NCBI RefSeq assembly: GCF_900091955.1 | Contig: NZ_FMDF01000101.1 | Location: 1-64,000, forward strand | DNA: 64,000 nucleotides | Origin: Streptomyces sp. Ncost-T10-10d | GTDB taxonomy: Bacteria; Actinomycetota; Actinomycetes; Streptomycetales; Streptomycetaceae | Reading direction: 5' to 3' | Shown: positions 44,568 to 53,464 of the stretch, piece by piece | Layout of the letters: every line of letters begins with the position of its first letter | Position numbering within the stretch: the first letter of the stretch is position 1 | Made by a program: the position numbers and the translations under genes | Notes under the pieces: generated by a model | Database searches by the model: none | What the model was told of the DNA's origin: nothing | What the model saw: the letters and a program-made list of their open reading frames with translations, nothing else

Positions 44568-44603
44568 GGCGGGGTGATGCGGATCGCGCACCACCCCGCC
44601 TTT
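44568..44603 (+). terminator. Terminator after amidase gene
   Basis: A 9-bp stem (44568-44576 with 44592-44600) with a 15-nt loop followed by TTTCG lies 20 bp beyond the stop. Confidence 0.7.
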
Positions 44604-44708
44604 CGCATGCCGCTCGCGCTTCCCTGTCCGGTGCCGTGCATCGCCCTCCCGCCCTCACAACAGCACCGTCAAGGCCCACGTCACATTTGAGTAACCTGCC
44701 GGAAACCC

Positions 44709-44738
44709 TTGACGTTTCTCCTGACTCGTTCTTAACCT
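44709..44738 (+). promoter_or_regulatory. Predicted promoter of the GlpP-type operon
   Basis: -35 TTGACG (44709-44714) and -10 TAACCT (44733-44738) are 18 bp apart. Transcription would begin near 44745, leaving a leader of about 148 nt before the MFS start codon. Confidence 0.6.
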
Positions 44739-44849
44739 CACTGCGTAGTTCGTACTTCTTGCAGTTCACGTGCTGCGGCGCTTTCCGCAGTGTTTTGACA
44801 GGCACAGACATAGACCACCTGTCGGTGGTTTCGTCATGCCTGTTTTTTT
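44739..44849 (+). promoter_or_regulatory. Leader with terminator hairpin, candidate antitermination switch
   Basis: Three structured elements follow the promoter. A hairpin CTGCGG-CGCTTT-CCGCAG (44773-44790) is followed by TGTTTT. Its right arm can pair instead with CACTGCG (44739-44745), an alternative fold. A long hairpin then begins with ACAGGCA (44798-44804) and closes with TGCCTGT (44837-44843), with an inner ACCACC/GGTGGT stem around TGTC and a GAC/GTC pair between them; it runs directly into T7 (44843-44849). T runs of this length are rare in such GC-rich DNA. This has the form of an intrinsic terminator in a leader, as at Bacillus glpD, where GlpP prevents termination. Confidence 0.65.
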
Positions 44850-44892
44850 GTGCTCCCCGTGCCGCCGATGGGTCTTCCTCGAAGGCGGATTC

Positions 44893-46347
44893 ATGGCACA
44901 ACGTCCGAGCGTCAAAGGCGTCGCCGACGTCGTTGCGCTCATCGATGGGCTGGGAAAGATCACCGGCCGGGCGCAAGTCATCTGGTTTCTCGTGTTCGGC
45001 GGGCTGTTTCTCGACGCCTATTCGAATGCCGCACTGAGCGCCGGTCTGGGACCGATGACGTCCCAGATGGAGCTGACCAGCACCCAGGTCTCGATCCTCA
45101 CGGCCACCGCTCCGGCCCTGGCGATCATCTTCAACCCGGTCGGCGGCTGGCTCGCCACCCGGATCGGCCGCGTCCCCCCGCTGCTCATCGCCAAGGTGTT
45201 CGCCATCGCGGGCGCCCTGCTCGCCGCCTTCGCCGGTGACTTCACCGTCGTCTGGTTCGGCCGGGTCCTGGTGGGTGTCGCGTACGGCATCGACTTCGCG
45301 GTCGCCATGGCGCTGCTCGCCGAGTACACCCCCGCGAAGCTGGGCGGCCGGCTGAACCTGTGGCAGGCGGTCTGGTACGTCGCCACCACCAGCAACCTCG
45401 CGCTCGCCCTGCTCTTCTTCAACCTGGACGTCGGTGCGGACATCTGGCGCTGGTCGGTCGGCTCGGCCGCGATCGTCGCCGCCACGCTGCTCGTGGGCCA
45501 GTGGCTGATGCTCAAGGAGAGCCCCACCTGGCTGGCGAGCAAGGGCCGTCTGGACGAGGCGGTCGTCAATCTGGACAGGATCTACAAGATCAAGGCCGTC
45601 GCCGGCAACCCCGACGAGGCGACCCGCGCCGCCACCGAGGCGCCCGCCATCGGGTTCCGCCAGGCCGGACTGCTCTTCAAGGGCGAGTACCTGCCGCGCA
45701 CGGTCCTCTCCTCGGTGATATCGCTCGGTCAGTCGATGCAGTACTTCGCGGTCGGCTGGTACCTCCCGCTGATCAGCCTGACGATCTTCGGTGAGAGCTT
45801 CGAGAAGGCCACCATCGGCTCGATGGTCTTCAACGCCTTCGGTATCGCGGGCGGGCTCCTCTCCGCGTACTTCGGTCGCCGGCTCGGACTGCGGCTCAGT
45901 TCCGCCGCCGGTTTCGCCGGGGTCTTCGTCGCCCTGCTCGCCATGGGGCTGACCTTCGAGAAGGTGCCCACCGCCGTGGCGTTCCTGCTGCCGGTCCTGT
46001 TCATCCTCTGCCATTCCTCGGGCCCCGGCGCCAACGGCAAGTCCATCGCCGCGCTCTCCTACAGCAGCGATGTCCGTGCGCTCGGCACCGGTGTCACCGG
46101 GATGGTCGGCAGCTTCGGCAGTGTCGTCGGGCTGTATGTCTTCCCGCAGATCAAGGACTCGCTCGGGCTCGCCGACACCTTCCTGGTGCTCTCCGTCGTA
46201 CCGCTGCTCGGCCTGATCACCTGTCTGGCGATCAAGTGGGACCCGACGAAGGCCGCTTCGCCCGACGAGGTGGCCGGGCAGGACCGTGCCGCGCCCGGCG
46301 CCCGGACCGGCTCGACGCAATCCGCGAAGTCCGTGACCGCGCGCTGA
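44893..46347 (+). CDS. MFS transporter
   Basis: A 484-residue major-facilitator protein with about 12 helices. Family motifs are PVGGWLATRIGRVPPLLIAK (motif A-like) and GRVLVGVAYGIDFAVAMALLAEYTP, as in the sugar-porter/inositol type, but there is no aquaglyceroporin in this operon. It is probably the uptake step for the substrate phosphorylated by the next gene. ATG 44893 is preferred over an upstream frame because GAAGGCGG lies a few bases before it. The C-terminus (DPTKAASPDEVAGQDRAAPG) is cytosolic and disordered. Confidence 0.88.
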   Translation: MAQRPSVKGVADVVALIDGLGKITGRAQVIWFLVFGGLFLDAYSNAALSAGLGPMTSQMELTSTQVSILTATAPALAIIFNPVGGWLATRIGRVPPLLIAKVFAIAGALLAAFAGDFTVVWFGRVLVGVAYGIDFAVAMALLAEYTPAKLGGRLNLWQAVWYVATTSNLALALLFFNLDVGADIWRWSVGSAAIVAATLLVGQWLMLKESPTWLASKGRLDEAVVNLDRIYKIKAVAGNPDEATRAATEAPAIGFRQAGLLFKGEYLPRTVLSSVISLGQSMQYFAVGWYLPLISLTIFGESFEKATIGSMVFNAFGIAGGLLSAYFGRRLGLRLSSAAGFAGVFVALLAMGLTFEKVPTAVAFLLPVLFILCHSSGPGANGKSIAALSYSSDVRALGTGVTGMVGSFGSVVGLYVFPQIKDSLGLADTFLVLSVVPLLGLITCLAIKWDPTKAASPDEVAGQDRAAPGARTGSTQSAKSVTAR

Positions 46348-46438
46348 CCGGCCGCCGGACCTGTCGCATCACACGATGGTCCTCTCCCCTTCCGTATCCC
46401 TCCACACAGCTCGCGATGCTCGCAATGAAAGGGCTGCA

Positions 46439-48016
46439 ATGACGCAGACGTTCCCCGGCGCCGCCCCACGGCGCGGTGTGCTGTCCATCGACGAGGGCAC
46501 CACGGGCACCAGGGCCGGAGTCGTCCTCGACTCGGGCGCCACCCACGAGGTGTTCTACCGGTCGATCAAGGTCAGCCATCCGGACGACCTCTCGGTCGAG
46601 CAGGATCCGATGGAGATCTGGACCGCCACCGTCGAGGTGGCGCGCCGGGCCGTCGGCCGGGCCCGCGAGGAGGGCATCGGGATCACCGCGGTCGCGCTCT
46701 CCACCCAGCGGGCCACCGCGATGCTGTGGGACCGGGTCAGCGGGCGGCCGTTGCTGCCCGCGGTGGTGTGGCAGGACCGGCGGTACGCGACCGAGCTCAC
46801 CGCGTACGAAGCCGAGTGGGACGCCGCCCTGCTGGCCCGTCAGGGCCGGCCGGTCGGCGCCCGCGCCCCGTTCCTCTGGGCCGCCCGGCAGATCGCCGCA
46901 CACCCGGAGGTGGCCGCCGCCCACCGCGAGGGCCGGCTGCTCTTCGGCACCGTAGACACGTGGCTGATCTGGCGCCTCACCGGCGGCGCCGTGCACGCGA
47001 CCACACCGACCAATGCCGCATCCACCGGCGGCTATCTACTGGAGCGGCACGCCTGGGACGAGGAGTGGATCAGCCACCTCGGCTTCCCCCTCGACCTGCT
47101 GCCGGAACTCCGCTCCGACGACGCCGGATTCGGTACGACCGACCCTGCCGCCCTCGGGATCGCCGTCCCGCTGGCCGCCTCCATGGGCGACCAGCACGCC
47201 GCACTCGTCGCGCTCGGCGGCCTCGCCGCCGGGCAGGGCATGTGCGTGTACGGGACCGGTGCCTTCGTCGACGCGGCGACCGGCACCACGCCCGCCCTGC
47301 CCAGGCCGGACATCTCCGGGGTGCTCGCCCAGCCCGGCCGGCGGCAGGGCGACATCAGCCACTACAGCCTGGAGGCGTACACCTCCACGGCGGGTTCGGC
47401 GCTGCGCTGGCTCTGCGACGACCTGGGGCTGTTCGCATCGCCGAAGGAGCTCGGTGAGGAGGCGGGCCGGGTCCCCACCCGGCCGGGCCGCACCCCGCGT
47501 TTCGTCCCGGCACTCGCCGGGGTCCGTACGCCGGTCTGGCACCCGGAGGCCACCGCCTCCCTCACCGGGCTCACCCTCGCCACCACCCGCGCCGATCTCG
47601 CGCGCGCCGTGCTGGACGGGATCGCGCACTCGGTGTGCGACCTGATCGACGGGGTCGCCGACACCATGGGCACGCCGTTCACCCGGCTCCGGGTCGGCGG
47701 CGGCGTCTCCGGCAGCGACCCCCTCATGCGGATCCAGGCCGACCTGACCGGCCTGCCGCTGGAGCGGGTCTCCGACTCCGCGACCGCCAGCCTGCGCGGC
47801 ACCGCCTATCTGGCCGGTGTCGCCCAGGGCCTGTGGTCCTCGCTGGAAGAGGTCGTCGAGGCGCAGCCGCACGGCCGGGTCTTCGAGCCGTCGATCCCGG
47901 CGGCCGAGCGCGCCGAGCAGCGGGCCGCCTGGCGCGACGTGCTGATCGCCCACCTGAACGACCCCGCACTGCTCCCTCCGAAGGATCCCGCACCCAAGCC
48001 TCACACCCCCCATTGA
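46439..48016 (+). CDS. FGGY-family carbohydrate/polyol kinase
   Basis: A 525-residue FGGY kinase closest in look to glycerol kinases: the GVLSIDEGTTGTRAGVVLDSGA phosphate loop, VWQDRRYATE, GTVDTWLIWRLTGG with the substrate Asp, GYLLERHAWDEEWISHLGFP, AASMGDQHAALVALGG (GDQ), YGTGAFV and GGGVSGSDPLMRIQADLTGLP. The GlpK FBP-inhibition loop is not obvious. It follows the MFS gene by 91 bp, with GAAAGG before ATG 46439. Glycerol, a tetritol or an alkyl-glycerol are candidate substrates. Confidence 0.88.
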   Translation: MTQTFPGAAPRRGVLSIDEGTTGTRAGVVLDSGATHEVFYRSIKVSHPDDLSVEQDPMEIWTATVEVARRAVGRAREEGIGITAVALSTQRATAMLWDRVSGRPLLPAVVWQDRRYATELTAYEAEWDAALLARQGRPVGARAPFLWAARQIAAHPEVAAAHREGRLLFGTVDTWLIWRLTGGAVHATTPTNAASTGGYLLERHAWDEEWISHLGFPLDLLPELRSDDAGFGTTDPAALGIAVPLAASMGDQHAALVALGGLAAGQGMCVYGTGAFVDAATGTTPALPRPDISGVLAQPGRRQGDISHYSLEAYTSTAGSALRWLCDDLGLFASPKELGEEAGRVPTRPGRTPRFVPALAGVRTPVWHPEATASLTGLTLATTRADLARAVLDGIAHSVCDLIDGVADTMGTPFTRLRVGGGVSGSDPLMRIQADLTGLPLERVSDSATASLRGTAYLAGVAQGLWSSLEEVVEAQPHGRVFEPSIPAAERAEQRAAWRDVLIAHLNDPALLPPKDPAPKPHTPH

Positions 48017-48091
48017 CGGCCCCTCACCGTCGCACTGGCGCCCCGTACCCGACTACGCGGCCGCCGCACCGAAACACCAGGAGTTGATGTT

Positions 48092-49765
48092 GTGATCACC
48101 ATGCCCGCCCGGAAACCGCGGCGAAGCGCCGCGGCGACCCGCCGAACGCCACTGCTGCTCGACCGGGCAGCCCTCAAGCGCCGGCTGGCCGACGACACGT
48201 ACGACGTGCTCGTCATCGGCGGCGGCATCACCGGGGCGTACGCCGTGCTCGACGCGGCCTCGCGCGGGCTGCGCGTGGCGCTGATCGAGAAGGACGACTT
48301 CGCATCCGGGACGTCGTCGAAGTCCTCGAAGATGGTGCACGGCGGCCTGCGCTACATCGAGCAGGGCAACGTCAACCTGGTCCGCCACTCGCTCCTGGAG
48401 CGTCACCGCTTCCGCAAGAACGCCCCGCATCTGGTGCACCGGCTGCCGTTCCTCTTCCCGATCCTGGAGAAGGAGGGCATCTTCGACGCCCGCCTCGCCA
48501 AGGGCTTCGAGGGTCTGCTGTGGACGTACGACCTGGTCGGCGGCTGGCGGATCGGCAAGCTCCACCAGCGGCTCACCGTCCCCGAGGTCCTCGCGCAGGC
48601 GCCGACGCTGCGCGCGGAGAACCTCAAGGGCGGGCTGATGTACTTCGACGCCCGTACCGATGACGCCCGGCTCGTCCTCACCATCGTCCGCACCGCCGCC
48701 GCGCTCGGTGCGACGGTGCTCAACGGCGCCAGGGCCGAGGGCCTGCTGATGCAGATGGGCAAGGTGGCCGGCGCCCGGGTCTCGGCGGACGGCGACACCC
48801 TCGACATCCGCTCGCGGGCCGTCGTCAACGCCACCGGGGTGTGGACCGACGAGCTCGACGCGAAGGCGGACGACGGCCACAAGCCGCAGGTGCGGCCCGC
48901 CAAGGGCGCCCACATCGTGGTGCCGTGGGACAAGGTCCGGATCAACTGCACGGTCACCGTGCCGATCCCCGGCCGGGCCCGCCGCGCGACCTGCACCCGC
49001 TGGGGCAACAGCGTCGTGCTGGGCACCACCGACGAGGACTACCAGGGCTCCCCCGACGATGTGCACTGCACCCGCGAGGAGATGGACTTCCTGCTGGAGG
49101 GCGCCAACACCGCCTTCGAGGGGAAGCTCACCCCGGACGACGTGGTCGGTTCCATCGGCGGTCTGCGTCCGCTGGTCGGCGGCAAGGAGGGCGCCACACT
49201 CGACATGCGCCGCGACCACCACATCACCGTCGGCCGCACCGGCATGGTGACGGTGACCGGTGGCAAGCTCACCACCAGCCGGCACATGGGCGAACTCGTC
49301 ATCGACAAGGTGATGACGGTCCTCGGCCGCAAGGGGAAGAGTCGCACCACCGACCTTCCGCTGCTCGGCGGCGCCGGTTACGACGCGGAGGCCGTCGCCG
49401 CGTCCGGTGGCATCGCCGCCCATCTCGGCGAGCGCTTCGGCACCGAGGCCCGGTTCGTCGGCGACCTGATCCAGGACGACCCCGCACTGGCCGAGCCGAT
49501 CGTCGCGGGACTCCCGTACACCAAGGCCGAGGTCGTCTACGCGGCCCGTGCCGAACTGGCCCGCTCGGTCGACGACGTGCTCTCCCGCCGGATGCGCGCC
49601 CGACTGTTCGCCCGGGACGCGTCCGCCGCCGCCGCCGAGGCCGTCGGCGCGATCCTCGGCCGGGAACTGAACCTCACCCAGGCCGAGGTGGAGCGTTCGG
49701 TCTCCGAGTACCTCGCAGCCGTCCATCACGAAAAGTCCGTACTCCTCGAAGGGGCAGCAGCATGA
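48092..49765 (+). CDS. FAD-dependent glycerol-3-phosphate dehydrogenase-like protein
   Basis: A 557-residue GlpD-type flavoprotein. The FAD motif DVLVIGGGITGAYAVLDAASRGLRVALIEKDDFASGTSSKSSKMVHGGLRYIEQGN is well conserved, as is VVNATGVWTDEL and a C-terminal DAO_C domain. GlpD oxidises sn-glycerol 3-phosphate to DHAP with quinone reduction at the membrane. Related enzymes (for example EryB) oxidise other polyol phosphates, so substrate specificity is open. GTG 48092 lies 8 bp after AGGAG. Its stop overlaps the next ATG (ATGA). Confidence 0.9.
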   Translation: MITMPARKPRRSAAATRRTPLLLDRAALKRRLADDTYDVLVIGGGITGAYAVLDAASRGLRVALIEKDDFASGTSSKSSKMVHGGLRYIEQGNVNLVRHSLLERHRFRKNAPHLVHRLPFLFPILEKEGIFDARLAKGFEGLLWTYDLVGGWRIGKLHQRLTVPEVLAQAPTLRAENLKGGLMYFDARTDDARLVLTIVRTAAALGATVLNGARAEGLLMQMGKVAGARVSADGDTLDIRSRAVVNATGVWTDELDAKADDGHKPQVRPAKGAHIVVPWDKVRINCTVTVPIPGRARRATCTRWGNSVVLGTTDEDYQGSPDDVHCTREEMDFLLEGANTAFEGKLTPDDVVGSIGGLRPLVGGKEGATLDMRRDHHITVGRTGMVTVTGGKLTTSRHMGELVIDKVMTVLGRKGKSRTTDLPLLGGAGYDAEAVAASGGIAAHLGERFGTEARFVGDLIQDDPALAEPIVAGLPYTKAEVVYAARAELARSVDDVLSRRMRARLFARDASAAAAEAVGAILGRELNLTQAEVERSVSEYLAAVHHEKSVLLEGAAA

Positions 49766-51315
49766 TCAGCCGTCAGACCATCACCCACCCGTTCAACCGG
49801 GGCAACTACACGATCGGCGCTCCCAGCTTCGCCAAGTGGGCGCAGAACACCCCGATCGGCGACGGCGAGGCCGCCCTCCAGGTGAACCCGGTCGAGGTCC
49901 CCGAGGCCGTGGTCGAGGCGTTGCGCGAGGCCGCGCACGCGGTGCACACCTCCCGCGACGAAGTCGTCACCCGGACCCGTGACTGGTGGGCCGGCTCGAT
50001 GATCGGCGAGACCGAGGGCCGTCCGGCGACGCCGGACGCCGTGATCGTCGAGGCGGCCGACGCCGACCAGGTCGCGGCCGTGCTGCGGATCTGCCACGAG
50101 GCCGGCATCCCGGTCACCCCGTCCGCGGGACGTTCCAACGTCACGGGCGCGGCGCTCCCCGTCTTCGGCGGCGTCGTCCTGGACGTCTGCGGACTGAACC
50201 GCATCACCGGCTTCGACGCCGAGTCGAACATCGTGGACGTCCAGGCCGGCATGTTCGGCGACCTCTTCGAGAAGCAGCTCCAGGAGGAGTACGGCGTCAC
50301 CACCGGCCACTGGCCGTCGGCCTTCGCCGTGTCCACGGTCGGCGGCTGGATCGCCTGCCGCGGCGCCGGTCAGCTCTCCACGCGTTACGGCAAGATCGAG
50401 GACATGGTCGTCGGCGTCGACGTCGTGCACGCGGACGGTACGCGTGCCACGTACGGTGACTACGCCCGAGCCGCGGTCGGCCCGGACCTGCGCCAGCTGT
50501 TCGTCGGCTCCGAGGGCACGCTCGGTGTGATCGTCTCGGCGCGGCTGCGCGTCCACCCGCTGCCGGAGTACGCGAACGCCGTCGCGTTCGGCTTCAAGAC
50601 CTTCGCGGAGGGCCTGGACGCCTGCCGCAAGATCATGCAGCGCGGTGCGACCCCGGCCGTTCTGCGGCTGTACGACACCCTGGAGTCCGGCACCCACTTC
50701 GGCCACCCCGAGACCAACCTGCTGCTCGTCGCCGACGAGGGCGACCCGGCCATCGTCGACGCCTCGATCAAGGTGGCGACCGAGGTCTGCGGGGCGTACG
50801 GCCCCGAGCTGGACAGCAAGGCGGTCTTCGAGCGCTGGCTGGACGAACGGATGCTGGTCGGCAAGTCCGCCGACGGCTTCAAGCCCGGTCCGGGCTTCGT
50901 CGCCGACACCCTGGAGATGGCCGCGTCCTGGACCGACCTCCCAGTCATCTACGACGAGGTGGTCGCCGCGATCCAGTCGGTGCCCGGCACCCTGGCCGCC
51001 TCGGCCCACCAGTCCCACGCGTACACCGACGGCGCCTGCGTCTACTTCTCGCTGCGCGGCGACGTGGCGCCCGAGTCGCGCCGCGACTGGTACCGCTCGG
51101 TGTGGGACGCGGCCAACGCCGTACTCATCGAGCACGCGGCGGCGCTCAGCCACCACCACGGCTGCGGTCTGCTGCGCGGCCCCTACCTGGAGGAGTCCCT
51201 CGGGGCGGGCTTCGCGACGTTCGTCGCGGTGAAGAAGGCCCTGGACCCGGCCGGCATTCTCAACCCTGGCAAACTGGGCCTTCCCAGCCGATTCGGTACG
51301 TCCCCGTTGAACTGA
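49762..51315 (+). CDS. FAD-binding oxidase resembling alkyl-DHAP synthase
   Basis: A 517-residue FAD_binding_4 enzyme. AGRSNVTGAALPVFGGVVLDVCGLNRI and FAVSTVGGWIACRGAGQLSTRYGKIEDMVVGV match the alkylglycerone-phosphate synthase pattern rather than the general lactate-oxidase pattern. The C-terminus keeps SHHHGCGLLRG, the His triad, and YTDGACVYFSLRGD, where the catalytic Tyr of AGPS is expected. AGPS swaps an acyl for an alkyl group on DHAP; placed after a GlpD-like enzyme, an alkyl-DHAP substrate or product is plausible. It overlaps glpD-like by 4 bp. Confidence 0.88.
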   Translation: MISRQTITHPFNRGNYTIGAPSFAKWAQNTPIGDGEAALQVNPVEVPEAVVEALREAAHAVHTSRDEVVTRTRDWWAGSMIGETEGRPATPDAVIVEAADADQVAAVLRICHEAGIPVTPSAGRSNVTGAALPVFGGVVLDVCGLNRITGFDAESNIVDVQAGMFGDLFEKQLQEEYGVTTGHWPSAFAVSTVGGWIACRGAGQLSTRYGKIEDMVVGVDVVHADGTRATYGDYARAAVGPDLRQLFVGSEGTLGVIVSARLRVHPLPEYANAVAFGFKTFAEGLDACRKIMQRGATPAVLRLYDTLESGTHFGHPETNLLLVADEGDPAIVDASIKVATEVCGAYGPELDSKAVFERWLDERMLVGKSADGFKPGPGFVADTLEMAASWTDLPVIYDEVVAAIQSVPGTLAASAHQSHAYTDGACVYFSLRGDVAPESRRDWYRSVWDAANAVLIEHAAALSHHHGCGLLRGPYLEESLGAGFATFVAVKKALDPAGILNPGKLGLPSRFGTSPLN

Positions 51316-51358
51316 CGTCAGCAGTCACGAACCCTCCTTCTCCAGGCAGGCCCTTGCC

Positions 51359-52018
51359 ATGACCCCTTCCCCGTCCCGGTCCGGTGCCGCACTCGACCCC
51401 CGGCTCGCCTCGGCCTTCGCCGAGGTGCCGGTCGTCGCGTCGGTCGTCGGCACCCAGCCGCTGCGGCAGTTCCTGACCGCACCGGCGAAGGTGTGCATCC
51501 TCGCGTCGCTCGCGGTGGGGCAGCTGCCCCAGGTGGTGCCGGCGCTGGGCCGGGCGGGGAAGACCGTGTTCGTGAACGTGGACAGCAGCCCCGGTCTGGC
51601 TCAGGACCGGGGCGCGCTGGAGTTCATCAAGAACATGGGCGCGCACGGCGTGGTCAGCACCCGGCTCTCCCTCATAGAGAAGGGCCGCCCGCTCGGCCTG
51701 CTGACGATGATGAAGGTGTTCGTCACCGACCGGTCCAATCTTCGCCGCTCCACGGACGCCATCTCGCGCGGGGCACCGGACCTGGTCGAGATCATGCCCG
51801 CCCCGATCGTCGCCCGGATGAGCGCGCAGGCACAGCGCGCGATGTCCCCGTCGGTCGCCGCCGGCTTCGTGGAAACCGCCGCGGACGTGGCGCTCGCGCT
51901 GGCCCTCGGGTCGGCCGCGGCCGCCACGTCCGACCCCCGCCTCTGGCACCTGCGCCGGGACCAGCTGCCACCGGTCCCGCCCGCCGCCCTGAAGAGGCCC
52001 GCCACACCCCAGGAGTGA
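51359..52018 (+). CDS. glpP: GlpP-family glycerol-3-phosphate-responsive antiterminator
   Basis: A 219-residue GlpP-type (PF04309) protein. The barrel core is complete: VVASVVGTQPLRQFLTAPAKVCILASLAVGQLPQVV, then KTVFVNVDSSPGLAQDRGALEFIKNMGAHGVVSTRLSLI and LLTMMKVFVTDRSNLRRSTDAISRGAPDLVEIMPAPIVARM. In Bacillus GlpP, with glycerol 3-phosphate bound, keeps polymerase going through a leader terminator. It has a ~30-residue extra N-terminus and a longer C-terminus. It is encoded inside the operon whose leader carries a terminator hairpin, which implies feedback control. Confidence 0.88.
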   Translation: MTPSPSRSGAALDPRLASAFAEVPVVASVVGTQPLRQFLTAPAKVCILASLAVGQLPQVVPALGRAGKTVFVNVDSSPGLAQDRGALEFIKNMGAHGVVSTRLSLIEKGRPLGLLTMMKVFVTDRSNLRRSTDAISRGAPDLVEIMPAPIVARMSAQAQRAMSPSVAAGFVETAADVALALALGSAAAATSDPRLWHLRRDQLPPVPPAALKRPATPQE

Positions 52019-52025
52019 TCCCCCC

Positions 52026-52328
52026 ATGACATATGTGGTCGTTGCCCGCTACCGCACCGAGGCCGGCGAGGAAGACACCGTCCTTCCCCTCCTCGACACG
52101 ATGGCCGCCGCCTCCCGCGAGGAGCCGGGCAATCTCGCCTACCGGGTCCACCAGGGCATCGAGGACCCGCAGACGATCGTGCTGTACGAGGAGTACGCCT
52201 CCGAGGCCGACTTCACCGCGCACTGCGCAACCCCGCACTTCCAGGAGATCGTGCTCGGCAAGGTCGTCCCGCTGCTGGAGAGCCGCGACGTGCTGCGCTG
52301 CGCTCCGCGTGCACAGGTGCAGTCGTGA
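52026..52328 (+). CDS. ABM-fold monooxygenase-like protein
   Basis: A 100-residue dimeric alpha+beta (ABM/YgiN) domain: TYVVVARYRTEAGEEDTVLPLLDTMAAASREEPGNLAYRVHQGIEDPQTIVLYEEYASEADFTAHCATPHFQEIV. YgiN relatives are putative quinol monooxygenases. Here it could protect or tune quinones used by the flavin enzymes. ATG 52026 lies 7 bp after the GlpP stop, and its stop overlaps the ADH start (GTGA). Confidence 0.88.
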   Translation: MTYVVVARYRTEAGEEDTVLPLLDTMAAASREEPGNLAYRVHQGIEDPQTIVLYEEYASEADFTAHCATPHFQEIVLGKVVPLLESRDVLRCAPRAQVQS

Positions 52329-53464
52329 AAACCCGTGCCGCGGTCCTGCGCGGGATATCGACCGCCCGCCCCTACTCCGGTACCCGCCCGGTCGAGGTGG
52401 AGGAACTGGAGCTGGGCGCCCCGCGCGAGGGCGAGGTGCTGGTCCGTATCGCGGCCGCCTCGCTCTGCCACTCGGACCTCTCGGTGGTCAACGGCGACCG
52501 GGTCCGCCCGCTGCCGATGGCCCTGGGCCACGAGGCGGTGGGCGTCGTCCAGGAGACCGGACCGGGCGTCGGCCGTGTCTCCCCCGGCGACCATGTGGCC
52601 CTCGTCTTCGTGCCCAGCTGCGGTTTCTGCGGCAACTGTGCGGCAGGCCGCCCGGCCCTGTGCGCGCAGGCAGCGGCGGCGAACGGCTCGGGCGCGCTGC
52701 TGCACGGCCCGTCGCTGCTGACCGACGCCTCCGGCAACCGGGTCCACCACCAGTTGGGTGTCTCCGCGTTCTCCGAACACGCGGTGCTGGCCCAGGAGTC
52801 GGTGGTCCCGATCCCCAAGGACATCCCGTTCACCGTCGCGTCGATGTTCGGCTGCGCGGTCCTGACGGGCGCCGGTGCCGTCATCAACACGGCGGCCCTG
52901 CGCCCCGGCCAGTCGACGGTGGTCTACGGCCTGGGCGGCGTGGGCCTCTCCGCGGTCCTGGGCGCCCGCGCGGCAGGGGCGTATCCGATCATCGCGGTCG
53001 ACCCGGTCCAGGAGAAGCGCGACCTGGCCGTCCGGCTGGGTGCGACCCATGCGTACGCCCCCGGCGACGCGATCGAGACCATCCTTGAACTCACCTCGGG
53101 TGGAGCCGAGTTGGCAGTGGAGGCGGTGGGCAGTCCCAAGGTCATGGCCGCGTGCCTGACGGTCGTGGCCCGGGGCGGCAGGGTCGTCTCGGTGGGCCTT
53201 CCCGCCCCCGACCGGGTGCTGGAGGTCCCGGCTCTGGCGTTCGCGGGCGAGGGCAAGTCCCTGCTGGGCTCGTACATGGGCGACGCGGTCCCGCGCCGCG
53301 ACATTCCCAGGTTCCTGGACCTGTGGCGGGCGGGCCTGATGCCGGTGGAACAGATGCACACGGGCACGCTTCCGCTGGCCGACATCAACGCGGCGATGGA
53401 GGAGCTGGCTTCGGGCCGGGCGATCCGCCAGGTCATCGACACGTCGGGAATGCTGAACGCCTGA
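52325..53464 (+). CDS. Zinc-dependent medium-chain alcohol dehydrogenase
   Basis: A 379-residue MDR dehydrogenase. Catalytic zinc ligands are in AASLCHSDLSVV and GHEAVGVV; the structural zinc loop CGFCGNCAAGRPALC has the four-Cys spacing. The NAD(P) Rossmann motif is VYGLGGVGLSAVLGARAAG. It would oxidise an alcohol to an aldehyde, possibly one released in the operon's pathway. GTG 52325 overlaps the preceding stop. A terminator hairpin follows. Confidence 0.92.
   Translation: MKTRAAVLRGISTARPYSGTRPVEVEELELGAPREGEVLVRIAAASLCHSDLSVVNGDRVRPLPMALGHEAVGVVQETGPGVGRVSPGDHVALVFVPSCGFCGNCAAGRPALCAQAAAANGSGALLHGPSLLTDASGNRVHHQLGVSAFSEHAVLAQESVVPIPKDIPFTVASMFGCAVLTGAGAVINTAALRPGQSTVVYGLGGVGLSAVLGARAAGAYPIIAVDPVQEKRDLAVRLGATHAYAPGDAIETILELTSGGAELAVEAVGSPKVMAACLTVVARGGRVVSVGLPAPDRVLEVPALAFAGEGKSLLGSYMGDAVPRRDIPRFLDLWRAGLMPVEQMHTGTLPLADINAAMEELASGRAIRQVIDTSGMLNA

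Follow-up and report, generated by a model that had tools for sequence, protein, structure and literature searches.

How is an operon controlled that carries, among genes of glycerol type, a gene for a GlpP antiterminator of its own? The question is raised by a stretch of 64,000 nucleotides from Streptomyces sp. Ncost-T10-10d (contig NZ_FMDF01000101.1, positions 1 to 64,000; hereafter the window). The operon at 44893-53464 encodes a transporter, an FGGY kinase, a GlpD-like dehydrogenase, a flavin adenine dinucleotide (FAD) enzyme resembling alkyl-dihydroxyacetone-phosphate synthase (AGPS), GlpP, an ABM protein and a zinc alcohol dehydrogenase. A first-pass annotation, made from the letters alone, had proposed that a GlpP antitermination circuit acts on the leader of this operon. 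We somewhat favor, at a little better than even chance, the reading that the leader is a protein-controlled RNA switch with two states, thrown by the GlpP that the operon itself encodes.

GlpP control of glycerol genes in Bacillus is already established, and GlpP is said to affect the stability of glpD mRNA in B. subtilis. According to an excerpt of the literature, GlpP of B. subtilis controls the promoters of glpD, glpT and glpFK, where the 5' untranslated region holds a terminator (PMC9604022), and another excerpt mentions GlpP merely as a Bacillus tool (PMC9732521). In the excerpts on GlpP, neither control in Actinobacteria nor a leader-RNA family linked to GlpP is described, the RNA target is not spelled out, and a reach beyond Bacillota is not discussed. 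The system in the window is like that of B. subtilis in that a PF04309 regulator is encoded near genes of the glycerol kinase and glycerol-3-phosphate dehydrogenase type, and in that the leader has a hairpin and a U-tract. It is unlike that of B. subtilis in that the regulator is encoded inside its own presumed target operon, the hairpin has a competitor in a second helix, an AGPS-like enzyme is encoded in the operon and the U-tract is dispensable across lineages.

Hairpin 1, the U-tract and the gene for GlpP

The operon encodes a full-length GlpP, as had been annotated (51359-52018; this and all other window features lie on the + strand). The protein matches PF04309, the glycerol-3-phosphate responsive antiterminator family, with 140 bits (cut-off 27) over model positions 1-173 of 173, matches the GlpP-type structures 3kts and 1vkf, and is the sole PF04309 match in the 9.36 Mb source genome. 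Family membership also holds for the operon proteins of Arthrobacter, Cupriavidus and Burkholderia, and residues G79, D124, P147, P164, G169 and W196 are invariant across 12 GlpP sequences. Upstream of the operon, a promoter-like sequence, TTGACG-18-TAACCT (44709-44738), places the inferred transcript start near 44745. A sequence of the form TTGACN-N16-19-TANNNT precedes the element in 51 of 53 leaders, the exceptions being L021 and L109. Folding, 30 distinct leaders and a covariance model, R1, revealed a terminator-like stem, hairpin 1, at 44797-44843; it is interrupted, has about 19 base pairs and ends in the apical stem CCACC-UGUC-GGUGG at 44815-44828. The fold of 131 nt of leader is better than those of 200/200 dinucleotide shuffles (z -4.5). 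Hairpin 1 runs directly into a T7 tract (44843-44849), consistent with the first-pass annotation, which was also right that such a tract is unusual here; it is the single run of at least six T or A in the whole window, the GC content of which is 69.5%. A simple terminator scanner run over the window did not list hairpin 1 with T7.

Scanning a genome collection with GlpP gave 36 loci, 32 from Streptomyces and four from Actinomadura. The upstream transporter gene is present in 33 of them (not in L040, L043 and L049), and the element stands before it in 33/33; together with the window they form an alignment of 34 leaders, 30 of which are distinct. About 30 nt of the leader are very highly conserved in sequence, and within the 30 leaders 93.9% of the cells of hairpin 1 are paired, with hardly any variation. 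In the element of Actinomadura harenae (L047, 3347-3398), an extra T was observed in the otherwise invariant hairpin arm (CCATCC). As a genome-wide motif, the element core gave one exact match, and 28 matches with at most two mismatches versus 24 for a reversed-pattern control.

The T run is less constant. It was counted in 34 Streptomyces-type leaders, which include seven fetched later and are not all distinct. The core of hairpin 1 is present in 34/34 of them, and the run is at least T4 in 30, T5 in 23 and T6 in 15, with T3 in L019, L041 and L042 and T2 in L108. The Arthrobacter tract is ATTTTTTG (T6), and four of five leaders in a further group, B, have T5, the other, L145, having T3. The run is a single T in three Actinomadura leaders and one to three T in four leaders of another Streptomycetaceae genus (L105-L107 and L130), and no T tract is found at the equivalent place in Cupriavidus and Burkholderia. 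Retention of the T run in relatives that keep glpP, which the first-pass annotation had expected, is thus seen in most Streptomyces-type leaders but not in Actinomadura, the L105-L107/L130 genus or the Betaproteobacteria, and the run is not an essential part of the element. We rejected it as a defining feature because it is missing in several lineages that keep GlpP, the hairpin and the repeat described below.

Helix 2 and the ribosome-binding site

Applied to the 30 leaders, RNAalifold predicted that CCUGUCGGUGG, which spans the loop of hairpin 1 and its 3' arm, pairs with a CCRCCGRYRGG sequence close to the start codon. In the window, the 5' strand of this helix 2 is ACCUGUCGGUGGU (44817-44829) and its 3' strand is GCCGCCGAUGGGU (44861-44873). 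The CCGCC of the 3' strand is also able to pair with the Shine-Dalgarno region, AAGGCGG (44882-44888), which pairs with 44862-44866 when hairpin 1 is formed in a short fold. We extended the comparison to diverged leaders of the core operon, namely those of Arthrobacter (L109), Cupriavidus (L110, L112), Burkholderia (L111) and further Streptomycetaceae, and to groups B (L127, L143-L146) and C (L140-L142), both from the family of an Actinomadura genome. Twenty-two leaders were chosen to span the groups, with 14 nt around CUGU as the test segment. Hairpin 1 and helix 2 are mutually exclusive, and the predicted helix 2 is conserved in all 22 leaders.

The best downstream partner of the CUGU segment ends 18-29 nt before the start codon in 22/22 leaders. 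Among 2000 shuffles per leader, an equally good partner was obtained 0-5 times for six Streptomyces leaders, 0-1 times for three of group B, 0-2 times for three betaproteobacterial leaders, 4 times for one leader of group C and 12-24 times for three of the L105 genus. Other 14-mers of the same leader are as good as the CUGU segment solely in L050 (3/34) and L110 (4/34). Two-sided changes occur at 7/14 positions of helix 2 among the 22 leaders, and compensatory changes were seen in four further lineages, only between families. When partners were swapped among five super-groups, with pairs inside the Streptomyces/Actinomadura/L105 super-group left out, a leader's own downstream region was matched by a foreign one in 19/312 cases, and its own segment in 12/312. 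The two strands thus change in step across groups.

Can helix 2 be an antiterminator? This was rejected, since transcription reaches the 3' strand of helix 2 about 12 nt past the U-tract. Therefore, if events follow this order, a factor must itself hold hairpin 1 open. Because the conserved helix 2 competes with hairpin 1, antitermination is probably not the sole output of the leader. Short folds, which start about 22 nt before the AGAC-AGAC-CUGU core, were computed with hairpin 1 (state 1) or with helix 2 forced (state 2). Hairpin 1 with its context is the minimum-energy fold in 19/22. State 2 leaves the 10-nt ribosome-binding window freer in 21/22 short folds, with L128 as the exception and a rise of at most 0.05 in L046, L050, L107 and L140; in the window sequence its unpaired value is 0.34 in state 1 and 0.59 in state 2. 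With hairpin 1 imposed, the 3' strand of helix 2 pairs with the start region in 22/22 leaders, over at least 3 nt in 17. Twenty-one leaders were also refolded from the inferred transcript start (L109 has no recognised promoter), and the ribosome-binding window was freer in state 2 in 18 of them, including 15/15 outside Streptomyces. Thus, predicted folding supports a translational step in groups B and C and in those lineages that lack a U-tract.

Several observations weigh against such a switch. Among the Streptomyces and Actinomadura leaders, covariation of the hairpin stem, for which the first-pass annotation had proposed a test, does not exceed that of shuffles; two-sided change in hairpin 1 amounts to one pair in one sequence, and shuffles give the same. 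Helix 2, with 97.5% of cells paired in these leaders, shows one-sided changes only and no excess over shuffles either. The test segment was fixed after the first alignment had been seen, and several diverged leaders had been inspected by eye before the test. The test is weak in three Actinomadura leaders (130-168 of 2000 shuffles as good), in two leaders of group C (68 and 36 of 2000) and in Arthrobacter (48), and the segments of Actinomadura and of the L105 genus find a better partner in the downstream region of Streptomyces than in their own. Forced helix 2 costs 7.5-25.3 kcal/mol relative to the best fold (7.5-22.9 in the short folds), so it needs strong help. After refolding from the inferred start, a clear rise was seen in one of six Streptomyces leaders. 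Full-length folds reverse the release in the window (0.36 to 0.20) and in L108 (0.52 to 0.15), show no rise in L051 and leave L128 and L046 almost unchanged; in the 131-nt fold of the window, the CCGCC strand instead finds its partner in additional sequence upstream. Because most full-length folds fail to expose the ribosome-binding site clearly in Streptomyces, where the U-tract is present, translational release is doubtful there.

These results bear on plain antitermination of the Bacillus style, in which GlpP just prevents termination at hairpin 1 and U7 and, at least in Streptomyces, helix 2 is without function. This would fit the T runs of Streptomyces-type, Arthrobacter and group-B leaders, the Bacillota leaders with the repeat, which are simple terminators, and the full-length fold of the window, in which the ribosome-binding site is not released in state 2. 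However, the hairpin, the repeat and helix 2 stay in lineages that have no U-tract, and the strands of helix 2 covary across groups. We regard plain antitermination as unlikely. Of the circuit proposed in the first-pass annotation, the co-occurrence of glpP with a conserved hairpin and U-tract in Streptomyces stands, as does a repeat in common with four Bacillota glpF/glpD leaders, but termination as the whole mechanism fits poorly with the leaders lacking a U-tract and with the competing helix.

How would a switch with two states work? By default, hairpin 1 would form while the RNA emerges (off). Where a U-tract is present, the hairpin would act as a terminator, and in lineages without one the downstream strand would hide the ribosome-binding site instead. 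On induction, GlpP would bind a tandem AGAC repeat in the 5' arm and keep hairpin 1 open, so that polymerase could pass the U-tract (on); it would presumably do so in complex with glycerol 3-phosphate or a related phosphate ester. In a later step, the freed CUGU and 3' arm would pair with the segment before the start codon, and the ribosome-binding site would be released. Binding by GlpP, the ligand, termination and the sequence in which these events occur are inferred, as is the release of translation in Streptomyces. Antiterminators of the LicT/SacY type also prevent a leader terminator by binding near its 5' arm; unlike them, the window regulator belongs to another protein family, with a match to PF04309 alone, and no dedicated search for a LicT/SacY RNA element was made. 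Mutually exclusive helices, one of which can hide a ribosome-binding site, are familiar from riboswitch platforms. Unlike known riboswitches, the leader here has no known aptamer, and the operon itself encodes a candidate for the cognate protein.

The tandem repeat and its link to GlpP

The candidate recognition sequence for GlpP is the conserved tandem AGAC-AU-AGAC at 44806-44815, and the pattern AGA-N2-5-AGAC-N2-4-CUGU was found in 22/22 leaders tested. Covariance model R1 detected one element per genome in 9/200 Streptomycetaceae genomes. Eight of these nine are all eight genomes with GlpP over the cut-off among the 200; GlpP was searched for under strict filters, with 30 candidates scored in each genome, which makes its absence elsewhere soft. 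The ninth genome, G005, has no glpP; its element (L168, contig C1, 12507-13320) stands at a deletion scar, where the first 45 codons of the transporter gene are joined to the end of the alcohol dehydrogenase gene, and no kinase gene, glpD, AGPS-like gene or glpP was found in the 18 kb around the scar. The repeat in G005 reads AGAC-GA-GGAC, and helix 2 is still possible. The altered second repeat, GGAC, fits with loss of protein recognition in this one case.

A similar repeat is found in Bacillota. The Cytobacillus glpD leader (GAGACCACGAGAGACC) and glpF leader (GAGAUUAAGAGACU) have a tandem RGAGAY repeat at the terminator, and tandem repeats are also present in the leader of a Paenibacillus GlpD-family gene (GAGAUCGGGAGAGC) and of an Acetoanaerobium MIP gene (GAGAUGGGAGAGU). 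All four sit in or just before the 5' arm of the terminator, and all of these clusters include glpP. The likeness in repeat to Bacillus-type systems is drawn from these relatives of B. subtilis. The tandem pattern occurs nine times in 11 Bacillota and Fusobacterium loci, four times in these glp leaders; neither the stretch from Listeria (L151) nor the second one from Paenibacillus (L152) has it. From sequence comparison, the similar repeat supports a putative shared recognition sequence for GlpP. In Enterococcus raffinosus (L120, near 7608, - strand), the leader of an MFS (major facilitator superfamily) gene has GGAGACCAGAGAG directly before a terminator hairpin, and a divergent glpP adjoins; this is suggestive. 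The repeat had no convincing counterpart in the leaders at GlpP loci of Enterococcus, E. coli and S. clavuligerus.

Other actors than GlpP can be considered with these data. One possibility is a small-molecule riboswitch, in which the 5' part itself binds glycerol 3-phosphate or a related metabolite and GlpP acts elsewhere. The strong conservation of about 30 nt and the choice between two helices are riboswitch-like. However, no Rfam match at gathering score was obtained in the window, and seven further loci gave one tRNA away from the leader, by which a known Rfam family was rejected as the identity of the leader. A conserved multi-stem aptamer is absent as well, the elements precede the glpP operon in eight of nine cases with the ninth at a scar, and a related repeat is found at Bacillota glp leaders near glpP. 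We find a riboswitch improbable. Another RNA-binding factor or an antisense RNA might use the element, with GlpP as a mere neighbor, and Rho, RNases or another protein may be the actor. Divergence of the operon GlpP clade from the Bacillus type would agree with another factor, but the single element per genome, its position before the glpP operon in eight of nine genomes and the alteration of the repeat in the one scar without glpP make it about equally improbable. Finally, a constitutive hairpin that stabilises the 5' end of the mRNA without switching would fit state 1 as the best short fold in most leaders, but it is very improbable given the conserved competing pairing that ends next to the start codon.

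The assignment of the two-state switch to GlpP also has points to its disadvantage. Co-occurrence of element and GlpP is partly forced by their shared operon, and the leaders of Arthrobacter, Cupriavidus and Burkholderia are not detected by R1. The spacing of the Bacillota repeats differs from that of the Streptomyces type, a Planococcus leader behind glpP holds a single AGAGAGACC, and no recognisable repeat was found in a hairpin arm at GlpP loci L089-L104, from other classes of the phylum. The operon GlpP clade is only 26% identical to Cytobacillus GlpP, and compared with the Cytobacillus type the window GlpP has NVD for HLD/HAD, AAGF for AGGL and TDRS for IDSS. From the NVD and AAGF changes and the low identity, it follows that ligand and RNA preference of the operon GlpP may differ. 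The altered motifs are hinting at another ligand and, because an AGPS-like enzyme is also encoded, something other than plain glycerol 3-phosphate may be sensed. An AlphaFold model of GlpP, for which 12 close sequences served as input, was of poor quality (mean predicted local distance difference test score 50.7) and was left unused.

A broader proposal, which we hold tentatively and at a little under even chance, is a family of leader RNAs, common to Actinomycetota and Burkholderiales, whose tandem AGAC/AGAGAC repeat is read by a protein of the GlpP family. The family would switch in two steps: hairpin 1 held open, which would give antitermination where a U-tract exists, and then release of the ribosome-binding site by the freed arm. 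The conserved output would then be release, with the terminator as an optional extra on which Streptomyces relies; the ligand may be a phosphate ester other than glycerol 3-phosphate. If so, GlpP proteins may act as switches of translation in addition to transcription, and the leader would be a compact inducible element in Streptomyces. The similar repeat in two phyla beyond Bacillota offers a comparative handle on the recognition sequence of GlpP.

The operon and related loci

The operon begins with an MFS transporter gene (44893-46347; profile match to Sugar_tr/MFS_1). It is followed by genes for a glycerol-kinase-like FGGY kinase (46436-48016), whose score is under the NCBIfam GlpK cut-off, and for a GlpD-like FAD glycerol-3-phosphate dehydrogenase (48092-49765), with a score under the NCBIfam cut-offs. 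The FAD_binding_4/FAD-oxidase_C protein (49762-51315) has alkyl-dihydroxyacetone-phosphate synthases as its nearest solved structures. Downstream of glpP, profile matches identify a small ABM-domain protein (52026-52328) and a zinc alcohol dehydrogenase family protein (52325-53464). The operon points to a little-studied polyol- or ether-phosphate pathway.

The first-pass annotation had called this a glycerol-type operon, which agrees with the glycerol kinase-like and GlpD-like genes; it is not the main glycerol operon of the genome. FGGY_N has 10 matches in the source genome, and the top one adjoins MIP and IclR genes in a separate IclR-aquaporin-glycerol kinase locus elsewhere. Therefore, the operon is an additional locus of glycerol type. 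The IclR-type GylR system is similar in that glycerol kinase and dehydrogenase genes are controlled in the same organisms. Unlike the leader switch proposed here, GylR acts on DNA; the IclR-MIP-kinase locus of the genome is separate, and we do not equate its IclR gene with GylR.

The core order mfs-kinase-glpD-AGPS-glpP, with the leader in front, is found in Streptomyces, Arthrobacter, Cupriavidus, Burkholderia and other lineages. The ABM and dehydrogenase genes are sometimes out of place in the diverged operons (Arthrobacter, Cupriavidus, Burkholderia, groups B and C and further Streptomycetaceae). In Burkholderia arboris (L111, 2580-3900), other DNA interrupts the transporter gene behind the conserved leader, and the kinase gene, glpD, the AGPS-like gene and glpP come next. 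One group-B operon (L146, 8230-9825) has the leader, the start of the transporter gene, a later part of the AGPS-like gene and glpP, with no kinase or glpD match. Most of the GlpP genes at L089-L104, whose class we take to be Coriobacteriia, have a glycerol-kinase-like or GlpD-like gene close by. GlpP-family genes near an FGGY kinase gene, an AGPS-like FAD oxidase gene or both were observed in S. clavuligerus, E. coli and Enterococcus gilvus (L113, L114 and L116). Such gene neighborhoods suggest a wider pathway linked to GlpP.

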